Below are positions 41,948-54,010 of a DNA stretch of 64,000 nt, in pieces (position 1 is the first letter of the stretch; every line of letters starts with the position of its first letter). The DNA comes from Actinomarinicola tropica. GTDB taxonomy: Bacteria; Actinomycetota; Acidimicrobiia; Acidimicrobiales; SKKL01. The position numbers and the translations under genes are program-made. The notes under the pieces were generated by a model. The model was not told the origin of the DNA and made no database searches. It worked only from the letters and a program-made list of their open reading frames with translations. The DNA is taken from assembly GCF_009650215.1 (NCBI RefSeq), contig NZ_CP045851.1, positions 248,001-312,000 on the forward strand, given 5' to 3'.

Positions 41948-42886
41948 ATGCTCGTCATCCAGCGCCCCTCGGTCGAGGCCATCGGCGACGGCGACACGCC
42001 CCGCGCGCTGTTCGCCATCAGCCCGCTCGAGCCCGGCTTCGGCTACACCATCGGCAATTCGCTGCGCCGCACCCTGCTGTCGTCGATCCCCGGCGCCGCC
42101 GTCACCCAGGTGCGCTTCGACAGCGCCCTGCACGAGTTCGACACCATCCCCGGTGTCACCGAGGACGCCACCGACATCATCCTCAACCTGAAGGACCTCG
42201 TCCTGAAGGTCCACACCGACGAGCCCGTCACCCTGCGCCTCGACGTGGCCGGCCCCCGCACCGTCACCGCCGGCGACATCGAGCCCACCGCCGACGTCGA
42301 GGTCCTCAACCCCGAGCTCGAGATCGCGACGCTCGACGACAACGGCCGCCTGGCCCTCGACATCACCGTCGCCAAGGGCCGGGGCTACGCCACCGCGGAG
42401 AAGAACAAGACCTCCTCCACGATCGGCGTCATCCCCGTCGACTCGATCTTCTCGCCGGTCCGCCGGGTCACCTTCGACGTCGAGCCGACCCGCGTCGAGC
42501 AGTCGACCGAGTACGACCGGCTGGTGCTCGACATCGAGACCGACGGCTCGATCACGGCGCGCGAGGCCCTGGCCTCCGCCGGCGCCACGCTCCGCTCGCT
42601 CGTCCAGCTCGTCGAGGAGATGAGCGACGAGCCGCAGGGCCTCGAGCTCGGCGAGGTCGGCCCCACCGGGTCCGGCTCGCCCGACCTCGACCTCCCGATC
42701 GAGGACCTCGACCTGTCCGAGCGTCCCCGCAACTGCCTCAAGCGCGCCCAGGTCAACACCGTGGGCGAGCTCCTCCAGAAGTCCGAGGATGACCTGCTGG
42801 CCATCACGAACTTCGGCCAGAAGTCGCTCGACGAGGTCATCGTCAAGCTCGATGAGCGGGGCCTGTCGCTCCGCGGCAAGGACTGA
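41948..42886 (+). CDS. rpoA: DNA-directed RNA polymerase alpha subunit
   Basis: The alpha dimer starts assembly of RNA polymerase, and its C-terminal domain contacts UP elements and activators. The 312-residue product has the N-terminal assembly domain (PLEPGFGYTIGNSLRRTLLSSIPG) and the C-terminal domain (RPRNCLKRAQVNTVGELLQKSEDDLLAI). The two are joined by an acidic linker near residues 230-250. GAGAGG precedes ATG 41948. Confidence 0.97.
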   Translation: MLVIQRPSVEAIGDGDTPRALFAISPLEPGFGYTIGNSLRRTLLSSIPGAAVTQVRFDSALHEFDTIPGVTEDATDIILNLKDLVLKVHTDEPVTLRLDVAGPRTVTAGDIEPTADVEVLNPELEIATLDDNGRLALDITVAKGRGYATAEKNKTSSTIGVIPVDSIFSPVRRVTFDVEPTRVEQSTEYDRLVLDIETDGSITAREALASAGATLRSLVQLVEEMSDEPQGLELGEVGPTGSGSPDLDLPIEDLDLSERPRNCLKRAQVNTVGELLQKSEDDLLAITNFGQKSLDEVIVKLDERGLSLRGKD

Positions 42887-42892
42887 CCTGCC

Positions 42893-43246
42893 ATGCCTGC
42901 CACCCCGAAGAAGGGCCGCCGGTTCGGCGGCGACGCCGCTCACCAGCGGCTCATGATGGCCAACCTCGTCGCGTCGCTGATCGCGGCCGAGGGCATCGTC
43001 ACCACCGAGGCCAAGGCCAAGGCCCTGCGCCCGGTCGCCGAGAAGATGATCACCAAGGCCAAGAAGGGCGGCATCCACAACCGCCGCCAGGTCGTGGCGT
43101 TCCTCGGTGACGAAGAGGTCGCGGCCAAGCTGTTCGACGAGGTCGGCCCTCGCTACGCCGATCGTCCGGGCGGCTACACCCGCATCCTCAAGCTCGGGAC
43201 GCGCTCGGGCGACAACGCCCCGACGGCGCGCATCGAGCTGGTCTAG
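42893..43246 (+). CDS. rplQ: 50S ribosomal protein L17
   Basis: L17 lies near the tunnel exit. The 117-residue product has [22 protein letters not shown] and [26 protein letters not shown], as in the family. It lacks the long tail of some actinobacterial L17 proteins. It starts 6 bases after rpoA and is followed by truA. Confidence 0.97.
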
Positions 43247-43267
43247 GAGCCGAGCCGGGCGTCGGCC

Positions 43268-44113
43268 GTGCCGGACCCCGGCTACGAGAGCCCGACCCTG
43301 TTCGACCTCTCGACCCCCGACGAGCCGGAGACCTCCGGACCCGTCGCACGCGTCCGCATGGTCGTCGCCTACGACGGCGCCCCCTTCCACGGCTTCGCCC
43401 CCAACGCCGGGGTGCGCACCGTCGGGGGCGACCTCGCCGCCGCGCTCGGCCGCCTGCTCGGGCGCACGGTCGAGCTGACCGTCGCCGGACGCACCGACAA
43501 GGGCGTCCACGCCCACGGCAACGTGGTGAGCTTCGACGCGCCCGCCGAGGGCCTCGACCCGCAGGCCCTGCGGGACGCGCTCAACAAGATGCTCCAGCCC
43601 CACGTCGCCGTGCGCCACGCCGCGGTCGCGCCCGACGGGTTCGACGCCCGGTTCTCGGCCACGGCCCGGACGTACCGCTACACGGTGCTCAACCGCGACG
43701 TGCCCGACCCGCTGCTCGCCGACCGCTCCTGGTTCGTCGACGCCCCGCTCGACCTGGCGGCGATGCGCCTCGCCTGCGATCCGCTCATCGGCGAGCACGA
43801 CTTCACGTCGTTCTGCCGCAAGCCCAAGCGCACCGACGGCGCCGATCCCGTCATGGTGCGGCGGGTGCGGTCGGCCCGGTGGGACGACCTCGGCGATGGC
43901 CTCCTGCGGTTCGAGATCCGGGCCAACGCCTTCTGCCACCAGATGGTCCGCAGCATCGTCGGCCTGCTGGTCGAGGTCGGGCTCGGCCGCCGCCACGCGG
44001 GTGACGTGCTCGGCGTGATCCGGGCCCGGGACCGCCACGCCGCCGGGCGCCTTGCGCCGCCGCAGGGCCTCGTCCTGTGGCACGTCGAGCTCGGGGAGGG
44101 GTCGGCCGATTAG
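43268..44113 (+). CDS. truA: tRNA pseudouridine(38-40) synthase TruA
   Basis: TruA makes pseudouridine at tRNA positions 38-40. The catalytic Asp is D77 in AGRTDKGVHAHG. The other family blocks are FDARFSATARTYRYTVLN and NAFCHQMVRSIVGLLVEVG. The 281-residue product has about 35 extra N-terminal residues before the fold begins at RVRMVVAYDGAPF. GTG 43268 is 21 bases after rplQ; the later in-frame ATG (in RMVVAYDG) is less likely but possible. Confidence 0.95.
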   Translation: MPDPGYESPTLFDLSTPDEPETSGPVARVRMVVAYDGAPFHGFAPNAGVRTVGGDLAAALGRLLGRTVELTVAGRTDKGVHAHGNVVSFDAPAEGLDPQALRDALNKMLQPHVAVRHAAVAPDGFDARFSATARTYRYTVLNRDVPDPLLADRSWFVDAPLDLAAMRLACDPLIGEHDFTSFCRKPKRTDGADPVMVRRVRSARWDDLGDGLLRFEIRANAFCHQMVRSIVGLLVEVGLGRRHAGDVLGVIRARDRHAAGRLAPPQGLVLWHVELGEGSAD

Positions 44114-44152
44114 CAGGTGCGCCAGCCCGAGGGGGGATGGTTTGTCCCGCGT

Positions 44153-44182
44153 TTGCCCCTAGCCTGACCCCGGGCCTAGAGT
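44153..44182 (+). promoter_or_regulatory. Candidate promoter of rplM-rpsI
   Basis: TTGCCC (44153-44158) and TAGAGT (44177-44182) are 18 bases apart, in the 155-base gap after truA. This would separate rplM-rpsI from the alpha operon. Confidence 0.5.
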
Positions 44183-44268
44183 TTCCCGTTGCCTTGGCGC
44201 CGGCGCGCTCGTCCCCCGACGGAGACGCCCGGCCCGTCCCGATCGAACGTTCACCAGGAAGTCCACGC

Positions 44269-44718
44269 GTGCGCACCTTCACCCCTCGCCCAGCCGACAT
44301 CCAGCGCAGCTGGTACGTCGTCGACGCCGAAGACCTCGTCCTCGGTCGGGTCGCCACCGAGGTGGCTCGCGTCCTGCGGGGCAAGCACAAGCCGATCTTC
44401 GCCCCCCACGTCGACACCGGCGACCACGTCATCATCGTGAACGCCGACAAGGTCGTCCTCACCTCGAACAAGGCGGAGAGCAAGCGCGTCTACCGCCACA
44501 GCGGGTTCCCCGGCGGCATCCGCTCCCGCTCCTTCGGCGAGGAGCTCGCCCGGTCGCCCGAGGACACCGTGCGCCGCACCGTGCGGGGCATGCTCCCGAA
44601 GAACCGCCTCGGCCGCGCCCAGCTGAAGAAGCTGAAGGTCTACGCCGGCCCGACGCACCCCCACGCCGCCCAGAACCCGCAGCCGCTCGTCATCGACGGC
44701 GCCCGTCGCGCTGTCTGA
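44269..44718 (+). CDS. rplM: 50S ribosomal protein L13
   Basis: L13 is an early 50S assembly protein. The 149-residue product contains [30 protein letters not shown] and [26 protein letters not shown] 44269 ([12 protein letters not shown]) matches the usual actinobacterial start, and AGGA lies 9 bases upstream. Confidence 0.96.
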
Positions 44719-44753
44719 TCGCCCGACAGCCTGAACCAGAGGTCGCTTCCCGC

Positions 44754-45146
44754 ATGCCTTCGCCCCTCGTGCAGTCCACCGGTCGCCGCAAGGAGGCCGT
44801 CGCTCGCGTCCGCATCCGTCCCGGTTCGGGCACCATCACCGCGAACGGCCGTCCGATCGAGGAGTACTTCCCGACCGAGACGCACCGGATGATCCTCAGC
44901 GAGCCGCTGAAGATCACCGAGACCGCCGACGTGTACGACGTGGACGCCACCCTCCACGGTGGCGGCCCCACCGGCCAGGCGGGCGCGTTCCGCATGGGCA
45001 TCGCCCGGGCCCTGGTCGAGATCGACGCCGACCTCCGCCCGGTGCTCAAGCGGGCCGGCTTCCTCACTCGCGACGCCCGCGAGAAGGAGTCCAAGAAGTA
45101 CGGCCTGAAGAAGGCCCGCAAGGCGCCCCAGTACTCCAAGCGCTGA
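44754..45146 (+). CDS. rpsI: 30S ribosomal protein S9
   Basis: S9 has a C-terminal tail that reaches the P-site tRNA. The 130-residue product has [38 protein letters not shown] and the basic end [17 protein letters not shown] with the terminal Lys-Arg. It is paired with rplM as in most bacteria; glmM follows 55 bases later. Confidence 0.97.
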
Positions 45147-45201
45147 GCGCGCTGCTCGTCGGGCTACGTCGCGTGGTCCGGGCGGCGAGCAGGGAGGCCT
45201 G

Positions 45202-46572
45202 ATGACCCTTCGCTTCGGAACCGACGGTGTGCGCGGCGTGGCCAACGCCGAGCTCACGCCCGAGCTCGTGCTCGCCCTCGGGCGTGCCGCGGCGCGCGTA
45301 CTCGACGCGGCTCGGGTGGGGCGCGTCGTGACCGGCCGCGACACCCGTCGGTCGGGTCCGCTGCTCGAGTCCGCCCTCGCTGCCGGCTTCGCCGCCGAGG
45401 GCATCGACGTCGACCTCCTCGGCGTGGTGCCGACGCCCACCGTCGCGTGGGTGGCCGCCACCGACGGTCTGCCGGGCGCGGTGATCTCGGCGTCGCACAA
45501 CCCCTTCGCCGACAACGGCGTCAAGCTGTTCGGAGCCGGGGGCGCCAAGCTGTCCGACAGCGACGAGGAGCGCCTCGAGGCCGAGCTCGACCGGATCCTG
45601 AAGGGCGAGGAGCCCGAGGCTCCGGTGCCCACCGGCGCCAAGGTCGGCCAGATCCGGCCGGCGGAGGGCCTGGTCAGCCGCTGGGGCGACGCCCTCCTCG
45701 GCTCGCTGGACGGACGTCGCCTCGACGGCCTCCAGGTGGTCATCGACTGCGCCAACGGGGCGGCCTCCCGCCACGCGGCATCGCTCCTCACACGCCTCGG
45801 CGCCGACGTCGAGGTCATCCACGACCAGCCCGACGGTCGCAACATCAACGACGGCTGCGGGTCGACGCACCCCGACGACCTGCGTGCCGCCGTCGTCGCG
45901 GCGGGTGCCGACGCCGGCCTGGCCTTCGACGGCGACGCCGACCGCGTGCTCGCGGTGGACGACACCGGCACGCTGCTCGACGGCGACCAGATGATCGCCA
46001 TGCTCGCGATCGACCGCCACGAGCGGGGCGCGCTGGCCGACGACACGGTCGTCGTCACCGTGTACAGCAACATCGGGCTGCGGCTGGCCATGGCCGAGCG
46101 CGGGATCGGCGTGGTCGAGACGCAGGTCGGCGACCGCTACGTGCTCGAGGCCCTCGAGCGCGGCGGGTGGCCCCTCGGTGGCGAGCAGTCCGGCCACATC
46201 ATCTTCCGAGACCTGGCCACCACCGGCGACGGCATCCTCACCGGCATCCAGCTGCTCGACCTTCTCGTGCGGTCGGGGCGCCCGTTGAGCGAGCTGGCCG
46301 CGACCACGATGACCCGCTACCCGCAGGTGCTGCGCAACGTGCGCATCGCGGGTCGCGCCGGGGCCGTCGTGTCCGCCATCTCCGAGGAGGTCGACCGGGT
46401 CGAGCGCGAGCTGGGCGAGCGGGGCCGGGTGCTCGTCCGCGCCAGCGGCACCGAGCCCGTCGTGCGGGTGATGGTCGAGGCCGAGACATCGGCCAGCGCC
46501 GAAGCCGCCGTCGACGAGCTCGTCGCCGCCGTGGAGGCGGCCGCCAGCCGCAGCGGCACCACCGCCCCGTAG
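45202..46572 (+). CDS. glmM: Phosphoglucosamine mutase
   Basis: GlmM turns glucosamine-6-phosphate into glucosamine-1-phosphate for UDP-GlcNAc and peptidoglycan. The 456-residue product has the phosphorylated Ser (S98 in ISASHNPF), the Mg site DGDADR (D243, D245, D247), the sugar loop GGEQSGH and the phosphate loop RASGTEPVVRVM. GGGAGG precedes ATG 45202. It is directly followed by the giant glmS, which supplies its substrate. Confidence 0.97.
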   Translation: MTLRFGTDGVRGVANAELTPELVLALGRAAARVLDAARVGRVVTGRDTRRSGPLLESALAAGFAAEGIDVDLLGVVPTPTVAWVAATDGLPGAVISASHNPFADNGVKLFGAGGAKLSDSDEERLEAELDRILKGEEPEAPVPTGAKVGQIRPAEGLVSRWGDALLGSLDGRRLDGLQVVIDCANGAASRHAASLLTRLGADVEVIHDQPDGRNINDGCGSTHPDDLRAAVVAAGADAGLAFDGDADRVLAVDDTGTLLDGDQMIAMLAIDRHERGALADDTVVVTVYSNIGLRLAMAERGIGVVETQVGDRYVLEALERGGWPLGGEQSGHIIFRDLATTGDGILTGIQLLDLLVRSGRPLSELAATTMTRYPQVLRNVRIAGRAGAVVSAISEEVDRVERELGERGRVLVRASGTEPVVRVMVEAETSASAEAAVDELVAAVEAAASRSGTTAP

Positions 46573-46616
46573 ACTCGCCGCCCTACGCGGGCTGTCGACT
46601 GGGAGAGGTTCGAGGT

Positions 46617-49600
46617 ATGTGCGGGATCATCGCTGTGGTGCGACGACCGGGCGTCCGCGAGCTCCCCGACGCGTCCGAGGTGCTCGCCTCGGTGCAGGCC
46701 GCGGCCGACGCCGTGCCGGGGCTCGACGCCTCGCCCGACGTGGCCCGGCTCGAGTCCGTCGCCGACGGGTTGCAGTCCGCCGACACCGCCCTGCGCGGCG
46801 TCGCCGGCGTGACGGTCCTGCTGGCCGACCCGGCGCTGCGCCCGGCGCTGCGGGCCGCCCTCGACGTCGTCGACGCCGTGGTCGCCCGCCTGGAGGCCCG
46901 TCTCGACGCCGGCGACGTCACCCTCGACGGCGGCCTCGAGGCCCTCAACGCCACCCTCATCCGCATCAAGGACGCCTCGTGGTCGGTCCGCCACGACCGC
47001 ATCCGCACCGCCGAGGCGGTCGCCGACCTCGCCGGCGCGAACCCGGCCCCGGCGGCGCTGGCCGGCTACCTGTCCGTCCAGCAGTCGCTGTCCGCGCTCG
47101 ACCGCCTGGAGGTCCGGGGCCGCGACTCCGCCGGCATCCAGGTGCTCGTCACCGATCACGGCCTCGACCTCGACGCGCCGGCCGTTGCCGCCCTGCTCGA
47201 CGGTCGGATCGACGACCCGCTGCTCACCTCGGGGGCGGTCCGCACCCCGTCGGGTGCGCTGGCCTTCGTCTACAAGGCCGCGGCCGAGATCGGCGAGCTC
47301 GGCGACAACACCCGCGCCCTGCGCGACGCCGTGCGCGCCGACGCGCTCCTGCGGATGGCGCTCGACAACGACACCGCTCGAGCACAGGTGCTCGGCCACA
47401 CCCGCTGGGCGAGCGTGGGCATCATCTCCCAGCCGAACGCCCACCCGCTCGACTCCACCGAGCTCGGCGGCTCGGTGGGGCCCTACGTCACCGCGGTCCT
47501 GAACGGCGACGTCGACAACTTCGCCGACCTGAAGTCCTCCGAGGGCCTCCGGATCGCGGCGGAGATCACCACCGACGCCAAGGTCATCCCCACGCTCGTG
47601 TCGCGCCACCTGGCGTCGGGCACGAACCTCGCCGACGCGTTCCGCTCGACGGTCGCCGCGCTCGACGGATCGGTCGCCATCGCCGCCTCGGCGGCCAGCG
47701 ATCCGGACCGCATGTGCCTGGCGCTGCGGGGCAGCGGCCAGGCGCTCTACGTCGGCATGGCCGACGACGCCTTCATCGCCGCCAGCGAGCCCTACGGCGT
47801 GATCGAGGAGGCCACCAGCTACCTCCGCATGGACGGCGAGACGCCGGCCGACCCCGACAGCCCCGTCGCGAGCCGGGGCCAGATCGTCGTCCTCGACGCC
47901 CGCATGGCGGGCGAGGTGGCCGGCGTCGAGCGCCTCTCCTACGACGGCACGCCCCTCCCCGTCGCCGAGGACGACCTCGTCGCTCCGGCGATCACCACCC
48001 GCGACATCGACCGCGGCGACCACCCCCACTTCCTGCTGAAGGAGATCTCCGAGGCGCCTCGATCGTTCCGGTCGACCCTGCGGGGCAAGCTCCTCACCGG
48101 GCCCGACGGCCGGCTCGACGTCCGCCTGGCGCCCACCAGCTTCCCCGACGACGTCCGCGACGACCTGGCGGCGGGCCGCATCACCCGCGTCCTCGTCGTC
48201 GGGCAGGGGACGGCGGCGGTCGCCGGCCAGAGCCTGGCCACCGTCCTGGCCGACCTCGTCGCCCACACGCCCCTGCGGGTCGAGTCCGCGCTCGCCACCG
48301 AGCTGTCCGGCTTCGGGCTGCGCCACGACATGACCGACACGCTCGTCGTGGCCATCAGCCAGTCGGGCACCACCACCGACACCAACCGCACCGTCGACCT
48401 CGTCCGGGCACGGGGCGGCCGGGTGATCGCCATCGTGAACCGGCGCGCCAGCGACCTCACCGACAAGTCCGACGGCGTCCTCTACACGTCCGACGGCCGC
48501 GACGTCGAGATGAGCGTGGCGTCCACCAAGGCGTTCTACGCCCAGGTCGCCGCCGGCTTCCTCCTCGCCGTCGCCGTGGCCGAGGCGGTCGGCGTCTCGA
48601 TCGGCGACCGGCCGCACCAGGAGCTCCTCGCCGCCCTCCGCGACCTCCCCCAGGCGATGGCCGCCACGCTCGAGGCCCGCCCGGCCATCGCCCGGGCCGC
48701 CCAGGCGTTCGCCCCGAGCCGCCGCTCGTGGGCGATGGTGGGCAACGGCCGCAACCTCATCGCCGCCCGCGAGCTGCGGATCAAGCTCTCCGAGCTCTGC
48801 TACAAGTCGATCGCCTGCGACGGCACCGAGGACAAGAAGCACATCGACCTCTCGTCGGAGCCGATGATCCTCGTGTGCGCCACCGGCCTCACCGGCTCGA
48901 CGGCCGACGACGTGGCGAAGGAGGTCGCGATCTACCGGGCCCACAAGGCGGCCCCGATCGTGATCGCCGGCGAGGGCGAGTCCCGGTACGCCGCGGCCCT
49001 CGACGTCATCTCGGTCCCGTCGGTCCACCCGGACCTCGGCTTCGTGCTGTCCGCCATGGCCGGGCACCTCTTCGGCTACGAAGCGGCGCTCGCCATCGAC
49101 GCCCAGGCGCTGCCGCTGCGCGAAGCGCGCGCCGCCATCGAGGAGCTGGCGTCCACCGAGCGCGACGCCGAGGCCGTGCTCTCGGCGCTGCGCCCCCGCC
49201 TCGCCCCGCTCGCCGCGCGCTTCTTCGACGGCCTCCGCGCCGGCGACTACGACGGCCACCTCGAGTCGAGCACGGCGGTCCGCCTCTCGACGACCCTGCG
49301 CTTCGCACTGGGGTCGGCGCCGCTCGACGCCTACGAGGTCGAGGTCGGCAAGGTCGGCACGCCCGGCGTGGTCGTCGAGGACCTCACCGACGCCCTCACC
49401 CGGGGCATCGAGGAGCTCACCCGGCCGATCGACGCCATCAAGCACCAGGCCAAGACGGTCACCGTGGGCATCTCCCGCTCCGACGAGTCGATCCTCGACG
49501 TGGCGCTCGTCCGGGCGGTGCTCGACGCCGGCGCCGGCCGGGACCGGCTCAACTACGCCACGCTCAAGTCGCTCGCCGACCTCGACCCTGCCGTCGCCGA

Positions 49601-50060
49601 GGTGCGGGGCTTCACCCGCTACGCCATCGACGGCCTCGACGACGAGGGCGCCCCGGCCACGATCACGGTGATCGACAAGGGCGGCATCGCCGTCGACATC
49701 CCGTCGCGCACCGACCGCGACCCCCACCTGCGGGGCACGAAGAACCAGGTGGCCCTCGAGCGGCGGGTGTTCGTCAACGTGGGCCGCAGCGACGCCCGCA
49801 CGACGGTCCTCGTGCCCGAGGTCAAGGGGCAGCAGACCACCGGCATCACGCTGCTGCACGTGGCGCTCACCGACCACCTCCCCGCGGGTGCGGCGCGCTC
49901 GGTCCTGCAGGGGTACCGCGGCCGGTACGCCGCGCTGCGGGACGCCGTCATGGAGACCGAGCCCGCGTTCCGCGACGACCTCCTCGCCGAGGTCCCCGTC
50001 GTCGAGCTGCTCACCTCGCCGATCCAGCCGCTGGCCGACCGCTGGCGCTCCGACCGGTGA
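46617..50060 (+). CDS. glmS: Giant glucosamine-6-phosphate synthase (GlmS-like, 1147 residues)
   Basis: GlmS makes glucosamine-6-phosphate from fructose-6-phosphate and glutamine. The product starts MCGIIAVVRRPG with the class-II glutaminase Cys2. About 140 helix-like residues then intervene before the core resumes at LEVRGRDSAGIQV (D170). Another 45 or so extra residues precede GHTRWASVG (H261) and the NG of VLNGDVDN (N296). HFLLKEISEAPRSF (H469) and SIS domain 1 (SQSGTTTDT from S581; VASTKAF) follow, then SIS domain 2 (GNGRNLIAARELRIKLSEL ... GTEDKKH). About 300 more residues of unrecognised sequence end the protein. Normal GlmS has about 610 residues. GGGAGAGG lies 8 bases before ATG 46617. 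Catalytic residues look intact. Confidence 0.88.
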   Translation: MCGIIAVVRRPGVRELPDASEVLASVQAAADAVPGLDASPDVARLESVADGLQSADTALRGVAGVTVLLADPALRPALRAALDVVDAVVARLEARLDAGDVTLDGGLEALNATLIRIKDASWSVRHDRIRTAEAVADLAGANPAPAALAGYLSVQQSLSALDRLEVRGRDSAGIQVLVTDHGLDLDAPAVAALLDGRIDDPLLTSGAVRTPSGALAFVYKAAAEIGELGDNTRALRDAVRADALLRMALDNDTARAQVLGHTRWASVGIISQPNAHPLDSTELGGSVGPYVTAVLNGDVDNFADLKSSEGLRIAAEITTDAKVIPTLVSRHLASGTNLADAFRSTVAALDGSVAIAASAASDPDRMCLALRGSGQALYVGMADDAFIAASEPYGVIEEATSYLRMDGETPADPDSPVASRGQIVVLDARMAGEVAGVERLSYDGTPLPVAEDDLVAPAITTRDIDRGDHPHFLLKEISEAPRSFRSTLRGKLLTGPDGRLDVRLAPTSFPDDVRDDLAAGRITRVLVVGQGTAAVAGQSLATVLADLVAHTPLRVESALATELSGFGLRHDMTDTLVVAISQSGTTTDTNRTVDLVRARGGRVIAIVNRRASDLTDKSDGVLYTSDGRDVEMSVASTKAFYAQVAAGFLLAVAVAEAVGVSIGDRPHQELLAALRDLPQAMAATLEARPAIARAAQAFAPSRRSWAMVGNGRNLIAARELRIKLSELCYKSIACDGTEDKKHIDLSSEPMILVCATGLTGSTADDVAKEVAIYRAHKAAPIVIAGEGESRYAAALDVISVPSVHPDLGFVLSAMAGHLFGYEAALAIDAQALPLREARAAIEELASTERDAEAVLSALRPRLAPLAARFFDGLRAGDYDGHLESSTAVRLSTTLRFALGSAPLDAYEVEVGKVGTPGVVVEDLTDALTRGIEELTRPIDAIKHQAKTVTVGISRSDESILDVALVRAVLDAGAGRDRLNYATLKSLADLDPAVAEVRGFTRYAIDGLDDEGAPATITVIDKGGIAVDIPSRTDRDPHLRGTKNQVALERRVFVNVGRSDARTTVLVPEVKGQQTTGITLLHVALTDHLPAGAARSVLQGYRGRYAALRDAVMETEPAFRDDLLAEVPVVELLTSPIQPLADRWRSDR

Positions 50061-50067
50061 CGCCTAC

Positions 50068-50436
50068 GTGATCGGCATCGGCGTGGACCTCGTCGACATC
50101 GACCGCTTCCGCACCGTGCTGGCGCGCACGCCCACCATGGCCGACCGGCTCTTCACCGCCGACGAGCGGGCCTACGCGGCCCGCCAGGCCGACCCCACCC
50201 CGCGGCTGGCGGTGCGGTTCGCCGCCAAGGAGGCAGTCCTCAAGTGCCTCGGACTCGGCCTCGGCGGCATGCCGCTCGCCCAGATCGAGGTGGTCCGTGA
50301 CGACGACACCGGGCGCCCCGACCTGCGCCTGCACGGTCGTGCCGCGGCCGTGGCCGAGGAGCACGGCGTCCGCGAGTGGCGGCTGTCGCTCACCCACACC
50401 GACGCGCTGGCGCAGGCCACGGCGGTGGCGCTGTGA
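50068..50436 (+). CDS. acpS: Holo-[acyl-carrier-protein] synthase
   Basis: AcpS moves phosphopantetheine from CoA to acyl carrier protein. The 122-residue product has IGVDLVDIDRF with D7, RFAAKEAVLKCLG with E55, both Mg ligands, and WRLSLTHT near the end. GTG 50068 is 7 bases after the glmS stop, and the stop overlaps the next gene (GTGA). The acpS-nnr-alr order is typical of Actinobacteria. Confidence 0.93.
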   Translation: MIGIGVDLVDIDRFRTVLARTPTMADRLFTADERAYAARQADPTPRLAVRFAAKEAVLKCLGLGLGGMPLAQIEVVRDDDTGRPDLRLHGRAAAVAEEHGVREWRLSLTHTDALAQATAVAL

Positions 50437-50819
50437 GCGGCACGACCTGGCTCGTCGTGGCCCACGGCAGCCGCGCCCCGGGGGTCACCGCCGACCACGA
50501 CGCCGTCTGCGCCGCGCTGGGCACCCGCGCCCCGGCCGGGATCGACGTCCGTCCGGCGTACCTCGAGATCAACGAGCCGTCGATCCCCGACGCCATCGAC
50601 GCCGCCGTGGCCGACGGGGCCGAGCGCGTCGTGCTCGTGCCCTACTTCCTGCACGCCGGGAACCACACCCGCCGTGACATCCCGGCGTTCGTCGACGAGG
50701 CCACCGTCCGCCACCCCGGCGTCGCTCTCTCGATGGCGGAGCACCTCGGTCCCGACGACCGCCTCGTCGCCATCCTCGCCGACCGGGCCGCCGAGGCGGG
50801 AGGGGAGCGGGGTCGGTGA
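50433..50819 (+). CDS. CbiX/SirB-like chelatase-family protein
   Basis: The 128-residue product resembles single-domain CbiX proteins, which insert cobalt or iron into sirohydrochlorin. It has VVAHGSRAPG at the start and VPYFLHAGNHTRRDIP in the middle, giving the two metal-handling His residues of the family. No cobalamin or sirohaem gene is adjacent, so the substrate is uncertain. It overlaps acpS and nnr by GTGA on both sides. Confidence 0.75.
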   Translation: MSGTTWLVVAHGSRAPGVTADHDAVCAALGTRAPAGIDVRPAYLEINEPSIPDAIDAAVADGAERVVLVPYFLHAGNHTRRDIPAFVDEATVRHPGVALSMAEHLGPDDRLVAILADRAAEAGGERGR

Positions 50820-52168
50820 TCCCGATCGTCACACCCGCCGAGATGGGTGCGATCGATCGTGCCGCCCCCGAACCGGTCGAGGTGCTGATCGGCCGAGCCG
50901 GCGCCGCCACCGCCCGAGCGGCGCTGCGCATGCTCGGCGGTGGCTACGGCCGCCGCGTGGCGGTCCTCGCCGGCCCCGGCAACAACGGGCACGACGGCCG
51001 CGACGCCGCGCGGCGGCTGGCGCGCCGTGGCGTGCGTGTCGTCGTCCACGAGCTCGGCGACCTGCCGGCTCGGATCGACGGGGTCGACCTCGTCGTCGAC
51101 GCGGCCCTCGGCACCGGAGCCCGGCCGGGCTTCGACGCCCCACAGGTGGCGGCGGGCATCCCCGTGCTCGCCGTCGACCTGCCCTCCGGGGTCGACGGAC
51201 TGACGGGCGAGGCCGGCGACGGCGTGCTCGCCGCCGACCGCACCGTCACCTTCGCCGCCCTCAAGCCCGGCCTCCTGCTCGGGCGGGGCCGTGAGCTGGC
51301 CGGTGCCGTCGAGGTCGCCGACATCGGTCTCGACACCACGGCCGCGCGCGCCCACCTCGTCACCGACGCCGACGTGGCCCGGCTCGTGCCCTCCCGGCCG
51401 ACGGACGCCCACAAGTGGCACGCCGCGGTGTGGGTCGTGGCCGGGTCACCGGGGATGACCGGTGCCGCCCACCTCACGGCGCGCGCCGCGCAGCGTGCCG
51501 GCGCCGGGTACGTGCGCCTCTCCACGCCGGGCCTCGACGACGACCCCGGTCGGCCCACCGAGGCGGTGGGGACGCCCCTGCCGAGCGACGGGTGGGCCGA
51601 CGCCGTCCTCGCCGACGCCGAGCGGTTCCGCGCCCTTGCGCTCGGCCCCGGACTCGGTCGGGCCAGCGACACGGCGGACGAGGTGCGCCGCCTGCTCGGT
51701 GCGCTCGAGACGCCCGTCGTCGTCGACGGCGACGGTCTGCACGCCCTCGGCGACGACCCGGCGGCGGTCCTCGCCGACCGCCCCGGCCCGACGGTGCTCA
51801 CCCCCCACGACGGCGAGGCCCAGCGGCTGCTCGGCCACCCGGTCCCCGCCGACCGCCTCGACGCCGGGCGTGGGCTGGCGGCCCGGACCGGGTCCGTGGT
51901 CCTGCTGAAGGGCCCGACGACCGTCGTCGCCGGGCCCGACGGGCGGGCGCTCGTCGTCACCGCCGGGGACGCGCGGCTCGCCACCGCCGGCACCGGCGAC
52001 GTCCTCACCGGCGTGGTCGCGGCGCTGCTCGCCGTCGGCACCGATCCCCTGGGGGCGGCGGCGGCCGGGGCACACCTCCACGGGCGGGCCGGCGTCCTAG
52101 GCTTCCCCCGTGGACTGGTGGCAGGCGACCTGCCCGACCTCCTCCCGCACGCCTTCCCCCAGACCTGA
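50816..52168 (+). CDS. nnr: Bifunctional NAD(P)H-hydrate repair enzyme (epimerase + dehydratase)
   Basis: Nnr repairs damaged NADHX and NADPHX. The 450-residue product has an N-terminal YjeF_N epimerase domain (VLAGPGNNGHDGRDAARRL) and a C-terminal ADP/ATP-dependent dehydratase domain (VVAGSPGMTGAAHLTARAA; AGTGDVLTG with D395). The epimerase part is slightly short. GTG 50816 overlaps the CbiX-like gene. Confidence 0.93.
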   Translation: MIPIVTPAEMGAIDRAAPEPVEVLIGRAGAATARAALRMLGGGYGRRVAVLAGPGNNGHDGRDAARRLARRGVRVVVHELGDLPARIDGVDLVVDAALGTGARPGFDAPQVAAGIPVLAVDLPSGVDGLTGEAGDGVLAADRTVTFAALKPGLLLGRGRELAGAVEVADIGLDTTAARAHLVTDADVARLVPSRPTDAHKWHAAVWVVAGSPGMTGAAHLTARAAQRAGAGYVRLSTPGLDDDPGRPTEAVGTPLPSDGWADAVLADAERFRALALGPGLGRASDTADEVRRLLGALETPVVVDGDGLHALGDDPAAVLADRPGPTVLTPHDGEAQRLLGHPVPADRLDAGRGLAARTGSVVLLKGPTTVVAGPDGRALVVTAGDARLATAGTGDVLTGVVAALLAVGTDPLGAAAAGAHLHGRAGVLGFPRGLVAGDLPDLLPHAFPQT

Positions 52169-52176
52169 GGAGCCTC

Positions 52177-52641
52177 ATGCCCGGTAGCACCCCAGTGCGC
52201 GAGATCATGACCACCGACGTCGTGACCTTCCGCGCCGACGACGACGTCCGCTCCGCCATGGAGCAGCTCGTCGCACGGGACGTCGACGGGGCGCCGGTCG
52301 TCGACGACGCCGGCCGGGTCATCGGCGTCCTCACCACCGGGGACCTCATCGTGCGCGAGAGCCGCCTGCACTTCCCGACGGTGATCTCCGTCCTCGGCGC
52401 GTCGCTGGAGCTCAAGTCCCGCAACTTCGACGAGGACCTCGACAAGGCGCTCGGCGCCCACGTCGGCGACGTGATGTCGGAGCCAGCGATCACCTGCCCG
52501 ATCGACGCCACGATCGAGGAGGCCGCCACGACGATGCACGACCACCACGTCGCCCGCCTGCCGGTCGTCGACGGCGACGGCGCGCTCGTCGGGATCGTCT
52601 CGCGCGGGGACGTCCTCCGGGGCATGCTCCGGCGGGACTGA
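52177..52641 (+). CDS. CBS-pair domain protein
   Basis: The 154-residue product consists of two CBS motifs: VREIMTTDVVTFRADDDVRSAMEQL to VIGVLTTGDLIVRE, and VGDVMSEPAITCPIDATIEEAATTM to LVGIVSRGDVLRGML. Paired CBS domains usually bind adenosyl nucleotides as energy sensors. No effector domain is attached. GAGGAG lies just before ATG 52177, and alr begins 1 base after its stop. Confidence 0.88.
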   Translation: MPGSTPVREIMTTDVVTFRADDDVRSAMEQLVARDVDGAPVVDDAGRVIGVLTTGDLIVRESRLHFPTVISVLGASLELKSRNFDEDLDKALGAHVGDVMSEPAITCPIDATIEEAATTMHDHHVARLPVVDGDGALVGIVSRGDVLRGMLRRD

Positions 52642-52642
52642 C

Positions 52643-53791
52643 GTGCGGGCCCGCGCCGACATCGACCTCGACGCGATCGCGGCGAACGTCCGCACGCTCG
52701 GACGCCTCGTCGCGCCCGCGCGGGTCTGCGCGGTGGTCAAGGCCGGCGGCTACGGCCACGGTGCGGCACCTGTGGCCCAGGCGTCGATCGACGCCGGCGC
52801 CGCCTGCCTGGCCGTCGCCCACGTCGAGGAGGGCGAGGCGCTCCGCGCCGCCGGGGTCGACGCCGCGGTGCTCCTCCTGTCCGAGCCGGACCCCGGTGCG
52901 ATGCCCCGCCTGGTGGCCGCCCGGCTCCAGCCCACGCTCTACACCCACGCGGGGATCGAGGCGGCGAGCGCCGCGGCGGTCGCCGCAGGGGTCACCCTCG
53001 ACGCCCACCTGAAGGTCGACACCGGCATGCGGCGCGTGGGGGCCGACCCGGTCGACGCCGTCGCCCGGGCCAAGGAGATCGACGGGGCCGCCGGGCTGGC
53101 GCTCGACGGCGTGTGGACGCACCTGGCCGTCGCCGACGAGCCCGACCACGAGTTCACCGCCGAGCAGCTCCGTCGGTTCCGGGCCGTGGTCGAGGAGCTC
53201 CAGTCGGCCGGGATGCGGCCCCGCACCCTCCACACCGCGAACTCCGCCGGCGCCATCGCCCACCCCGACGCGCGGGCCGACCTCGTGCGCTGCGGCATCG
53301 CCGTCTACGGCCTGGCCCCATCGCCGCAGCTCGCGGCGAGGGTGCCGCTCGTCCCCGCCCTCACGCTGCGCTCCGAGGTCAGCTTCGTGAAGCAGGTCGG
53401 CGCGGGGGAGGGGATCTCCTACGGGCTGCGCCACCGCTTCGCCCACGACACCACCGTCGCCACCGTCACCATCGGGTACGCCGACGGCGTCCGACGCCGC
53501 CTGTCCGAGGTCGGCGGCGAGGTCCTCATCGGCGGGCGCCGTCACCCGATCGTCGGCACCATCACCATGGACCAGCTGATGGTCGACTGCGGTGACCACC
53601 CCGTGGCCCCGGGCGACGAGGTCGTGCTCATCGGCCGCCAGGGCGACGAGGAGATCACCGCCGAGGAGTGGGCCGAGCGGCTCGACACCATCCCCTACGA
53701 GGTCGTGTGCGGGATCGGGCCACGGGTGGAGCGGCGCTGGCACCGATCGGGTGGTCCGGTCGAGGGGAGTGGCACGCCGACCTCCGGGTAG
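52643..53791 (+). CDS. alr: Alanine racemase
   Basis: Alr makes D-alanine for peptidoglycan with PLP. The 382-residue product has the PLP lysine K33 in AVVKAGGYGHG, where most enzymes read KADAYGHG, and the catalytic Tyr Y260 in GISYGLRHRF. HLKVDTGMRRVG and TIGYADGVRRRL are also present. GTG 52643 follows the CBS gene by 1 base. The unusual Gly-Gly in the PLP motif is conservative in size and probably tolerated. Confidence 0.94.
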   Translation: MRARADIDLDAIAANVRTLGRLVAPARVCAVVKAGGYGHGAAPVAQASIDAGAACLAVAHVEEGEALRAAGVDAAVLLLSEPDPGAMPRLVAARLQPTLYTHAGIEAASAAAVAAGVTLDAHLKVDTGMRRVGADPVDAVARAKEIDGAAGLALDGVWTHLAVADEPDHEFTAEQLRRFRAVVEELQSAGMRPRTLHTANSAGAIAHPDARADLVRCGIAVYGLAPSPQLAARVPLVPALTLRSEVSFVKQVGAGEGISYGLRHRFAHDTTVATVTIGYADGVRRRLSEVGGEVLIGGRRHPIVGTITMDQLMVDCGDHPVAPGDEVVLIGRQGDEEITAEEWAERLDTIPYEVVCGIGPRVERRWHRSGGPVEGSGTPTSG

Positions 53792-53801
53792 GGCGCGGCC
53801 C

Positions 53802-53984
53802 ATGAGCGACATCAACGAACCGCCCCGTGACGACGAGATGACCTACGCCGAGGGACGCGAGAAGCAGGCCGAGTTCGAGGGGCTCGTCGAGGAGAAGGAC
53901 GGCGACGTCCAGGCCGCCACCGACGCCCAGCTCGCCGGCGAGGAGCCCGACGACGAGGACCGCACCAACTACAAGCTGACCTGA
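53802..53984 (+). CDS. Small acidic protein of unknown function
   Basis: The 60-residue product (MSDINEPPRDDEMTYAEGREK ... DDEDRTNYKLT) is strongly acidic, has no membrane segment and is not recognised. It begins 10 bases after alr and has the same codon character as its neighbours. No clear ribosome-binding site is visible. Confidence 0.55.
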   Translation: MSDINEPPRDDEMTYAEGREKQAEFEGLVEEKDGDVQAATDAQLAGEEPDDEDRTNYKLT

Positions 53985-54010
53985 CGGCTCGGCGCCGGCT
54001 CCGCTGGCGC

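Follow-up and report, generated by a model that had tools for sequence, protein, structure and literature searches.

GlmS stands at the entry to amino-sugar and cell-wall synthesis and usually measures about 610 residues, with its catalytic tail (C-tail) at the very end. Bacterial GlmS and eukaryotic GFAT (for instance E. coli 1jxa and human GFAT-1 6r4e) share a class II glutaminase, two SIS domains and a C-tail carrying the catalytic lysine. Published work assigns isomerisation to Glu488, His504 and Lys603 (E. coli numbering), and eukaryotic GFAT is subject to feedback by UDP-GlcNAc (PMC9272926). In Bacillus subtilis, PMC7525490 describes GlmR/YvcK as a UDP-GlcNAc-binding protein with a proposed role in GlmS control, which again couples GlmS to UDP-GlcNAc but through a separate protein. 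Enlargement by sensor-like terminal domains is found in another actinobacterial enzyme of nitrogen metabolism, the large NAD-glutamate dehydrogenase mL-GDH180 (7jsr).

The window analysed here, by which we mean the whole stretch of 64,000 nucleotides, contains an open reading frame with an ATG start that encodes a GlmS-like protein of 1147 residues, compared with 609 in E. coli (Table 1). This giant GlmS is nearly twice the usual size and is found in a whole branch of actinobacteria. Homologues of about equal length are present at 80 loci in public genomes, the length is kept at about 1130-1180 residues throughout Acidimicrobiia, and dN/dS values indicate purifying selection in all regions; the reading frame is therefore neither a chance product nor a frame artefact. 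We found no description of such a GlmS in the literature. A search of window positions 42000-54000 against Rfam, including the glmS ribozyme, gave no element at the gathering threshold.

Table 1. Features of the giant glmS locus, in positions of the window
Feature	Position	Strand	Evidence
Probable ribosome-binding site GGGAGAGG	46601..46608	+	Direct sequence reading; 8 nt 5' of ATG
Giant glmS, 1147 codons + stop	46617..50060	+	ORF/translation; same-length homologues in 80 loci
glmM (phosphoglucosamine mutase family), directly 5' of giant glmS	45202..46572	+	Pfam PGM_PMM I-IV
acpS, start 8 nt past giant glmS stop codon	50068..50436	+	Pfam PF01648
Cys2 codon, equivalent to catalytic Cys1 of the glutaminase	46620..46622	+	Invariant in 77 giants
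N-terminal insert, residues 10-144	46644..47048	+	E. coli GlmS alignment; DSSP of model; dN/dS 0.24
Remaining glutaminase (class II GATase) domain, residues 145-459	47049..47993	+	Pfam PF13522; 1xff superposition
Second glutaminase insert, residues 181-214	47157..47258	+	Alignment; dN/dS 0.22
First SIS domain, residues 460-660 (GQGTA, SQSGTTTDTN, VASTKAF)	47994..48596	+	Pfam PF01380; catalytic-site mapping
Second SIS domain, residues 661-829 (E719, K723, E726, H742)	48597..49103	+	Pfam PF01380 (two stretches); site mapping
Helical insert between SIS2 and C-tail, residues 830-935	49104..49421	+	Alignment; predicted helices
Relocated canonical C-tail, residues 936-953 RPIDAIKHQAKTVTVGIS	49422..49475	+	MAFFT alignment, invariant run, superposition
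Lys946 codon, equivalent to catalytic Lys603 of E. coli GlmS	49452..49454	+	Invariant in 77 giants and 26 normal GlmS
Appended C-terminal domain, residues 954-1147	49476..50057	+	AF2 model; fold matches; dN/dS 0.091

The original prediction had listed Cys2, RGRDSAG, HTRWA, NG and both SIS domains as present, and the translation together with Pfam (GATase_6 and two SIS stretches) bears this out. Scores against the curated GlmS models stay below the cut-off (224.6 versus 418.05 bits for TIGR01135 and 246.2 versus 381 bits for NF001484), and for this reason we call the protein a divergent GlmS subfamily. Identity to normal GlmS is about 22-30%, and only about 22% to the solved structures, and the stem of the giants in the tree is very long. 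The fold matches GlmS/GFAT with Z 37-39 over about 590-605 aligned residues. What sets the giant apart are inserts of 140 and about 50 residues in the glutaminase, a C-tail that is internal, a helical insert of about 105 residues and an added domain of about 195 residues.

In the glutaminase half the motifs are RGRDSAG (167-173), HTRWA (261-265), NG (296-297) and TTDAK. Residues C2, R263, N296, G297 and D320, the counterparts of E. coli Cys1, Arg73, Asn98, Gly99 and Asp123, are invariant in 77 giants, and the E. coli glutaminase 1xff superposes on the model of this domain with Z 31.1 and an rmsd of 1.8 over 236 residues. The separation of about 140 residues after Cys2 noted at the outset is confirmed, the cysteine and the arginine of RG.DSAG being 165 residues apart where E. 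coli has 25. It is accounted for by an insert of five predicted helices between glutaminase strand beta1 and helix alpha1 (DSSP of the model), the least conserved part of the protein. Likewise, the extra residues before HTRWA, put at about 45, appear in the alignment as a DSAG-to-HTRW distance about 50 residues longer than in E. coli.

The isomerase domains superpose on solved GlmS/GFAT structures with Z 36-39. The counterparts of E. coli Glu481, Lys485, Glu488, His504 and Lys603 are invariant in the same 77 giants, with K723, E726 and H742 as the equivalents of Lys485, Glu488 and His504. Three neighbours in the active site are changed: His77, Ser303 and Glu351 of E. coli are replaced by V/I, A and T, respectively. 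The confidence of the AlphaFold model dips at the His742 loop (729-746) and again at the C-tail (949-955).

About 300 unrecognised residues had been predicted to follow the second SIS domain as a plain extension past the sugar-binding half. Residues 830-1147 indeed have no Pfam or NCBIfam match above cut-off, but the enzyme's own catalytic C-tail, with Lys946, lies in the middle of this region, which is thus not simply an extension. MAFFT places E. coli VDQPRNLAKSVTVE on giant residues 936-953 (RPIDAIKHQAKTVTVGIS), where K946 stands in IKHQAKTVTVG and the E. coli counterpart ends in PRNLAKSVTVE-COOH. The longest invariant run in giant GlmS (941-954) falls here, and dN/dS is 0.005. Model residues 464-953 superpose on 243-608 of 1moq with Z 36.4, and the C-tail of the AlphaFold model lies on those of E. 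coli (608) and human GFAT; the placements by alignment and by superposition differ by no more than about 2 residues, and support from the sequence taken by itself is modest (z 2.8). We conclude with high confidence that the catalytic C-tail of this protein is relocated: it is internal, between two added modules. In normal GlmS the alignment has the C-tail directly after SIS2, and it follows that about 105 helical residues now precede the tail as an insert and about 195 have been joined on behind it.

The appended domain, modelled on its own with AF2, has a pLDDT of 94.9 and a predicted PAS-like alpha/beta fold with C-terminal helices. The predicted order of its strands (993-1005, 1015-1023, 1052-1055, 1062-1070 and 1073-1084) fits the PAS arrangement, a five-stranded sheet with helices separating strand 2 from strand 3, with fold matches of only Z 7-9. 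These matches are mostly sensor domains of the GAF, PAS and CACHE type, together with the PAS-type domain of the mycobacterial large glutamate dehydrogenase; all are weak, none lying under E 0.001 in Foldseek and the best Z, 8.8, being near the level that the tool regards as possible chance. On this basis the domain probably adopts a PAS-like sensor fold. A Pfam PAS profile gave no match in 17 giant GlmS members. The C-terminal region matched nothing meaningful in Pfam, NCBIfam, PHROGs or PDB sequences, the sub-threshold matches being DUF7124 (E 0.01) and viral coat proteins (E 0.03-0.2). It had no homologue in plasmids, phages and IMG/VR contigs, and the domain had no match in a viral structure library.

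Among the matches listed, only the PAS-type region of mL-GDH180 spans the whole appended domain (162 residues, a weak Z of 8.0). It belongs to another enzyme and has no significant profile similarity to the appended domain: hhalign against large-GDH N-termini gave P 0.1-0.5, in a test of limited strength, with three wrong frames in the first comparison and only three PRDEL-anchored sequences in the second. The home genome has no large GDH.

The giant is the sole GlmS of a one-contig genome of 3.7 Mb that is 98.8% complete. Neither a second, normal glmS (profile search, TIGR01135 and SIS matches) nor a loss of catalytic residues, which together would have spoken for another role, was found. PurF accounts for the other class-II amidotransferase with a TIGR01135 match, and the remaining SIS gene encodes a 352-residue isomerase of the PGI/PMI type beside a phosphomannomutase-like gene. 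Among 110 genomes of the class, 60 have normal GlmS only, 45 the giant only and none both, and the two forms occupy one gene slot, rplM-rpsI-glmM-glmS-nnr-alr. The housekeeping GlmS has been rebuilt once, and in many families the rebuilt form has taken over the locus of the normal one. The proposal that this gene, adjoining glmM, supplies glucosamine-6-phosphate is upheld by its being the sole candidate, by its glmM linkage, by the catalytic residues kept and by its replacing normal glmS at the locus. Its identity as GlmS is well supported, and we predict with high confidence that it is functional as such.

The home genome also carries a gene of the glucosamine-6-phosphate deaminase type (PF01182), for which running in reverse is possible in principle; PF01182 also includes 6-phosphogluconolactonases. 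GlmR/YvcK is absent from this genome. Its loss was considered as a correlate of the giant, which it does not follow cleanly (17/45 versus 13/60), and is not used as evidence, since p is 0.08 and the losses are phylogenetically clustered.

The low similarity to normal GlmS, the very long stem and the three changed active-site neighbours would fit an amidotransferase for some other ketose phosphate that is not the cell's GlmS. We consider this very improbable given the absence of any other GlmS in the genome, the normal-glmS locus, the strict mutual exclusion and the full set of catalytic residues. Even less probable is that the added parts are neutral ballast of a fast-evolving lineage: the N-terminal insert, with its dN/dS of 0.24, could be read in that manner, but the rate of change of the appended domain is as low as that of the catalytic domains (dN/dS 0.091 versus 0.093, the value of SIS1, and 0.100), and this domain is present in 27 of 27 strong matches from a search of 296 genomes of the phylum. 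The third activity that had been suggested was given one concrete form, a GlmS-acetyltransferase fusion in which the appended domain performs the glucosamine acetyltransferase step. That step looked unassigned, because the home GlmU is short (model 2-345 of 452) and is without its acetyltransferase end. GlmU truncation, however, tracks the order and not the giant, as five order-mates with normal GlmS are also truncated and 19 giant-bearing genomes of other orders have full-length GlmU. No acetyltransferase fold occurs among the structure matches listed, and an identity of the GlmU/GNA1 type is contradicted by the GlmU survey, which makes this reading highly improbable. Foldseek/VIA lists are in themselves no proof that a fold is missing.

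The inserts and the added domain may instead be structural, giving another oligomeric state or a scaffold (a larger assembly, or docking of GlmM or cell-wall enzymes) with no ligand sensing. The N-terminal insert and residues 830-935 are helical, glmM and acpS are closely linked to the giant glmS, and in the mycobacterial large GDH subunit contacts are made by terminal extensions (PMC8175468). Yet several polar residues of the appended domain are invariant (R1031, K1042, D1059, R1061, E1068 and K1070) and its strand order is PAS-like, features that point to a pocket more than to a mere scaffold, and the domain is retained in the f50 genomes, where glmS is not linked to glmM. We regard a purely structural role as unlikely, while giving it real weight. 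Added regulation, as originally proposed, is the best remaining reading in view of the PAS-like fold.

Our overall reading, which we think probable, is a housekeeping GlmS of an Acidimicrobiia-centred lineage, remodelled around a normal core, in which a PAS-like sensor domain gates the C-tail. The glutaminase half would release ammonia from glutamine through Cys2, and in the SIS half Glu726, His742 and Lys946 would convert fructose-6-phosphate to glucosamine-6-phosphate. The helical insert 830-935 runs into the C-tail and the PAS-like domain is attached directly behind it. With the tail now fixed at each end, we propose that the PAS-like domain, sensing a metabolite or a partner, could control the closure of the C-tail (the lid and Lys946) over the active site. 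Taken separately, we infer this regulatory gating with slightly less than even confidence. That the domain on the lid gates the catalytic lysine in answer to a metabolite of the cell wall or of nitrogen metabolism, taking the place of external GlmS regulators, we put forward more tentatively still. The enzyme would then carry its own allosteric control over the entry to amino-sugar synthesis. Eukaryotic GFAT offers a parallel, being of the GlmS type and under direct control that goes beyond the core catalytic parts, but its UDP-GlcNAc site is in the isomerase domain and it has no appended PAS-like domain.

In this lineage an essential housekeeping enzyme has come to carry its catalytic tail flanked by two new modules. 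Should the tail be gated by the appended domain, allosteric control built into the lid of an active site could be put to a direct test here, and GlmS would be regulated otherwise than by the sRNA and GlmR systems known elsewhere in bacteria or through the UDP-GlcNAc site in GFAT of eukaryotes.

No second normal glmS was found in the home genome, a single 3.7 Mb contig that is 98.8% complete, when TIGR01135 matches and SIS genes were inspected as the original prediction had proposed. Besides the giant (the GlmS-like protein of the window; the term also covers its same-size homologues), TIGR01135 gave one other strong match, a 534-codon ORF that is PurF-like by sequence and was rejected as GlmS. 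The one other SIS gene encodes a protein of 352 residues and adjoins a phosphomannomutase-like gene; this product was rejected as well, being of the phosphoglucose/phosphomannose isomerase type. Pfam assigns GATase_6 and two SIS stretches to the giant, with no further match above cut-offs in the rest of the protein.

Catalytic residues were mapped to the E. coli enzyme. In the glutaminase, Cys1, Arg26, Arg73, Asn98, Gly99 and Asp123 correspond to C2, R167, R263, N296, G297 and D320, and in the synthase Thr302, Ser347, Gln348, Ser349, Thr352, Glu481, Lys485, Glu488, His504 and Lys603 correspond to T532, S581, Q582, S583, T586, E719, K723, E726, H742 and K946. Across 77 giants each of these residues is invariant and no catalytic one has been lost; neighbouring positions are altered (His77 to Val/Ile, Ser303 to Ala, Glu351 to Thr). 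Cys1 serves glutamine hydrolysis, and Glu488, His504 and Lys603 serve isomerisation (review, PMC9272926). Judged by sequence, the giant would thus be the GlmS of the home genome and, as its sole GlmS with the catalytic residues kept, the likely supplier of glucosamine-6-phosphate, as originally predicted. It scores below the curated GlmS cut-offs, so the most fitting name for it is a divergent subfamily of GlmS; the open-access papers that were searched contain no account of it.

Coordinates of the features, in the window unless indicated
Feature	Position	Strand	Remark
Giant glmS	46617-50060	+	open frame from ATG to stop, 1147 residues
GGGAGAGG	46601-46608		precedes the ATG of giant glmS
Five-helix glutaminase insert (N-terminal)	46644-47048		in all full-length members examined
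Shortened GlmU of the home genome (G000)	C1:2726515-2727570; L246, 1468-2574	-	outside the window

The predicted spacing of the glutaminase motifs was reproduced by alignment with E. coli: Cys2 to RG.DSAG is 140 residues longer, and HTRWA lies about 50 residues further off again. The N-terminal insert is the least constrained part of the giant (dN/dS 0.24).

One scan of GTDB species genomes gave at least 80 giant loci. Among the matches listed, identity is 57-70%, and of those complete at both ends 75 of 76 have 1124-1173 residues and one has 1183. Nearly all sources are Acidimicrobiia or Actinomycetota; a few MAGs are labelled Thermoanaerobacterales, Acidobacteria or Bifidobacterium breve, labels that appear wrong. 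Genome searches were made within Actinomycetota, where 27 of 296 phylum-sample genomes carry the giant C-terminal region at E < 1e-60. The giant family excludes normal GlmS in the class survey (n = 110), with 60 genomes having normal GlmS above cut-off, 45 the giant only and none both, and 5 without a match at the chosen threshold. A single surveyed genome, G042, holds normal GlmS and a giant (locus L198); it has about 5% contamination and 360 contigs, and is possibly a mixed assembly.

Normal glmS follows glmM in 12/12 normal loci examined, nearly all in the order truA-rplM-rpsI-glmM-glmS-nnr-alr, and 30 giant loci that were inspected have the giant gene in this slot. In the home genome 44 nt separate the giant gene from glmM upstream of it, and acpS starts 8 nt after its end; cbiX-like, nnr and alr genes come next. 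Some other actinobacterial families have the giant at a different site, yet as the genome's only GlmS, which suggests horizontal transfer. In one such family, f50, it lies near a recN-like gene. At loci L193, L194, L200 and L201 (genomes G103, G167, G124 and G264) it is separated from glmM and a recN-like gene is close by; these genomes gave no normal GlmS above cut-off, and transfer with displacement is likely in their family. In a tree of the SIS region the giants form one clade (support 100) with a very long stem and small spread within; the exact position of the root cannot be relied on, as the stem is saturated.

Lys603 of normal GlmS lies in the short C-tail, ...VDQPRNLAKSVTVE, with which that protein ends. 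In the giant no tail comes directly after SIS2, which finishes near residue 829, and MAFFT aligns the tail of E. coli with IDAIKHQAKTVTVG (residues 938-951), about 110 residues further on. The best tail-profile site is at this place in every giant, though with a modest z of 2.8 versus shuffles from sequence alone. The longest run of invariant residues in the giant is IKHQAKTVTVGISR (941-954), the tail has a dN/dS of 0.005, with only the eight-residue first strand lower, and the distant relatives L009 and L029 retain DAIRHQAKTVTVGISR. A full-length AlphaFold2 monomer model (77 sequences, no templates) reached pLDDT 88.1 and pTM 0.81, with low confidence at the tail (949-955) and the His742 loop (729-746). 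The corresponding His504 loop of normal GlmS reaches into the partner subunit, beyond the reach of a monomer model. In VIA-align, model residues 464-953 superpose on E. coli isomerase 243-608 (1moq, Z 36.4) and 2-953 on 1jxa 1-608 (Z 37.6), the tail superposition being not fully independent because AlphaFold2 training included GlmS structures; sequence and structure registers differ by about 2 residues. By computation, the C-tail is relocated in the giant and K946 is Lys603. The C-terminal region, originally predicted to be new throughout, is so in 830-935 and 954-1147; the tail between them is canonical GlmS.

In the model 830-935 is helical, the last helix (916-949) running into the tail, and 954-1147 forms a separate alpha/beta domain; segment 830-1147 modelled alone reached pLDDT 94.9. 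The appended domain has predicted strands 993-1005 and 1015-1023, helices, and strands 1052-1055, 1062-1070 and 1073-1084, a modelled order which is that of PAS domains. In fold searches it matched sensor domains of the GAF, PAS and CACHE types over 75-95 residues, with Z 6.5-8.8. Over 162 residues, at Z 8.0, it matched the PAS-type domain of the large glutamate dehydrogenase from M. smegmatis; Z near 8 is the level at which the fold-search tool cautions of chance. For this domain Foldseek gave no match at E < 0.001, nor did comparison of profiles reveal homology to the large glutamate dehydrogenase. The resemblance of the model to sensor domains is weak but consistent. The domain is under strong selection, with a dN/dS of 0.091 (SIS1 0.093, SIS2 0.070, glutaminase 0.100). 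R1031, K1042, D1059, R1061, E1068 and K1070 are invariant or nearly so and would fall in the pocket-forming region of PAS folds, which hints at an anionic ligand.

Home-genome GlmU (368 aa) matches its model to position 345 of 452 and is without the acetyltransferase end, which raised the idea that the extra domain supplies the step. The search gave no clear candidate for a GlcN-1-P acetyltransferase that replaces it. The idea of supply by the extra domain was tested (ALTERNATIVES) and rejected: GlmU is shortened likewise in other matched genomes of the same order and not in other orders of the class, so that shortening tracks the order, including 5 genomes with normal GlmS, and 19 giant genomes of other orders have a complete GlmU. 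One other left-handed-beta-helix match in the search resembles a UDP-sugar acetyltransferase of the surface-sugar type. GlmR/YvcK (TIGR01826) and the large NAD-glutamate dehydrogenase (PF05088) were not found in the home genome and are present in many class members. GlmR/YvcK loss would agree with built-in regulation of the giant; it does not separate giant from normal genomes (17/45 versus 13/60, p 0.08).

The computations show an intact catalytic core in a sole GlmS, with the tail relocated and the appended domain constrained. The additions may possibly be purely structural or oligomeric. The tail of normal GlmS has a free end, which shuts over the sugar once this is bound. Unlike this free end, the giant tail would be fixed at both ends, so the 954-1147 domain could move the lid: movement or ligand binding there could open or close it together with Lys946, UDP-GlcNAc being the first candidate for such a ligand. 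We infer that a fusion at the tail is most economically read as control of the lid by a sensor-like domain.
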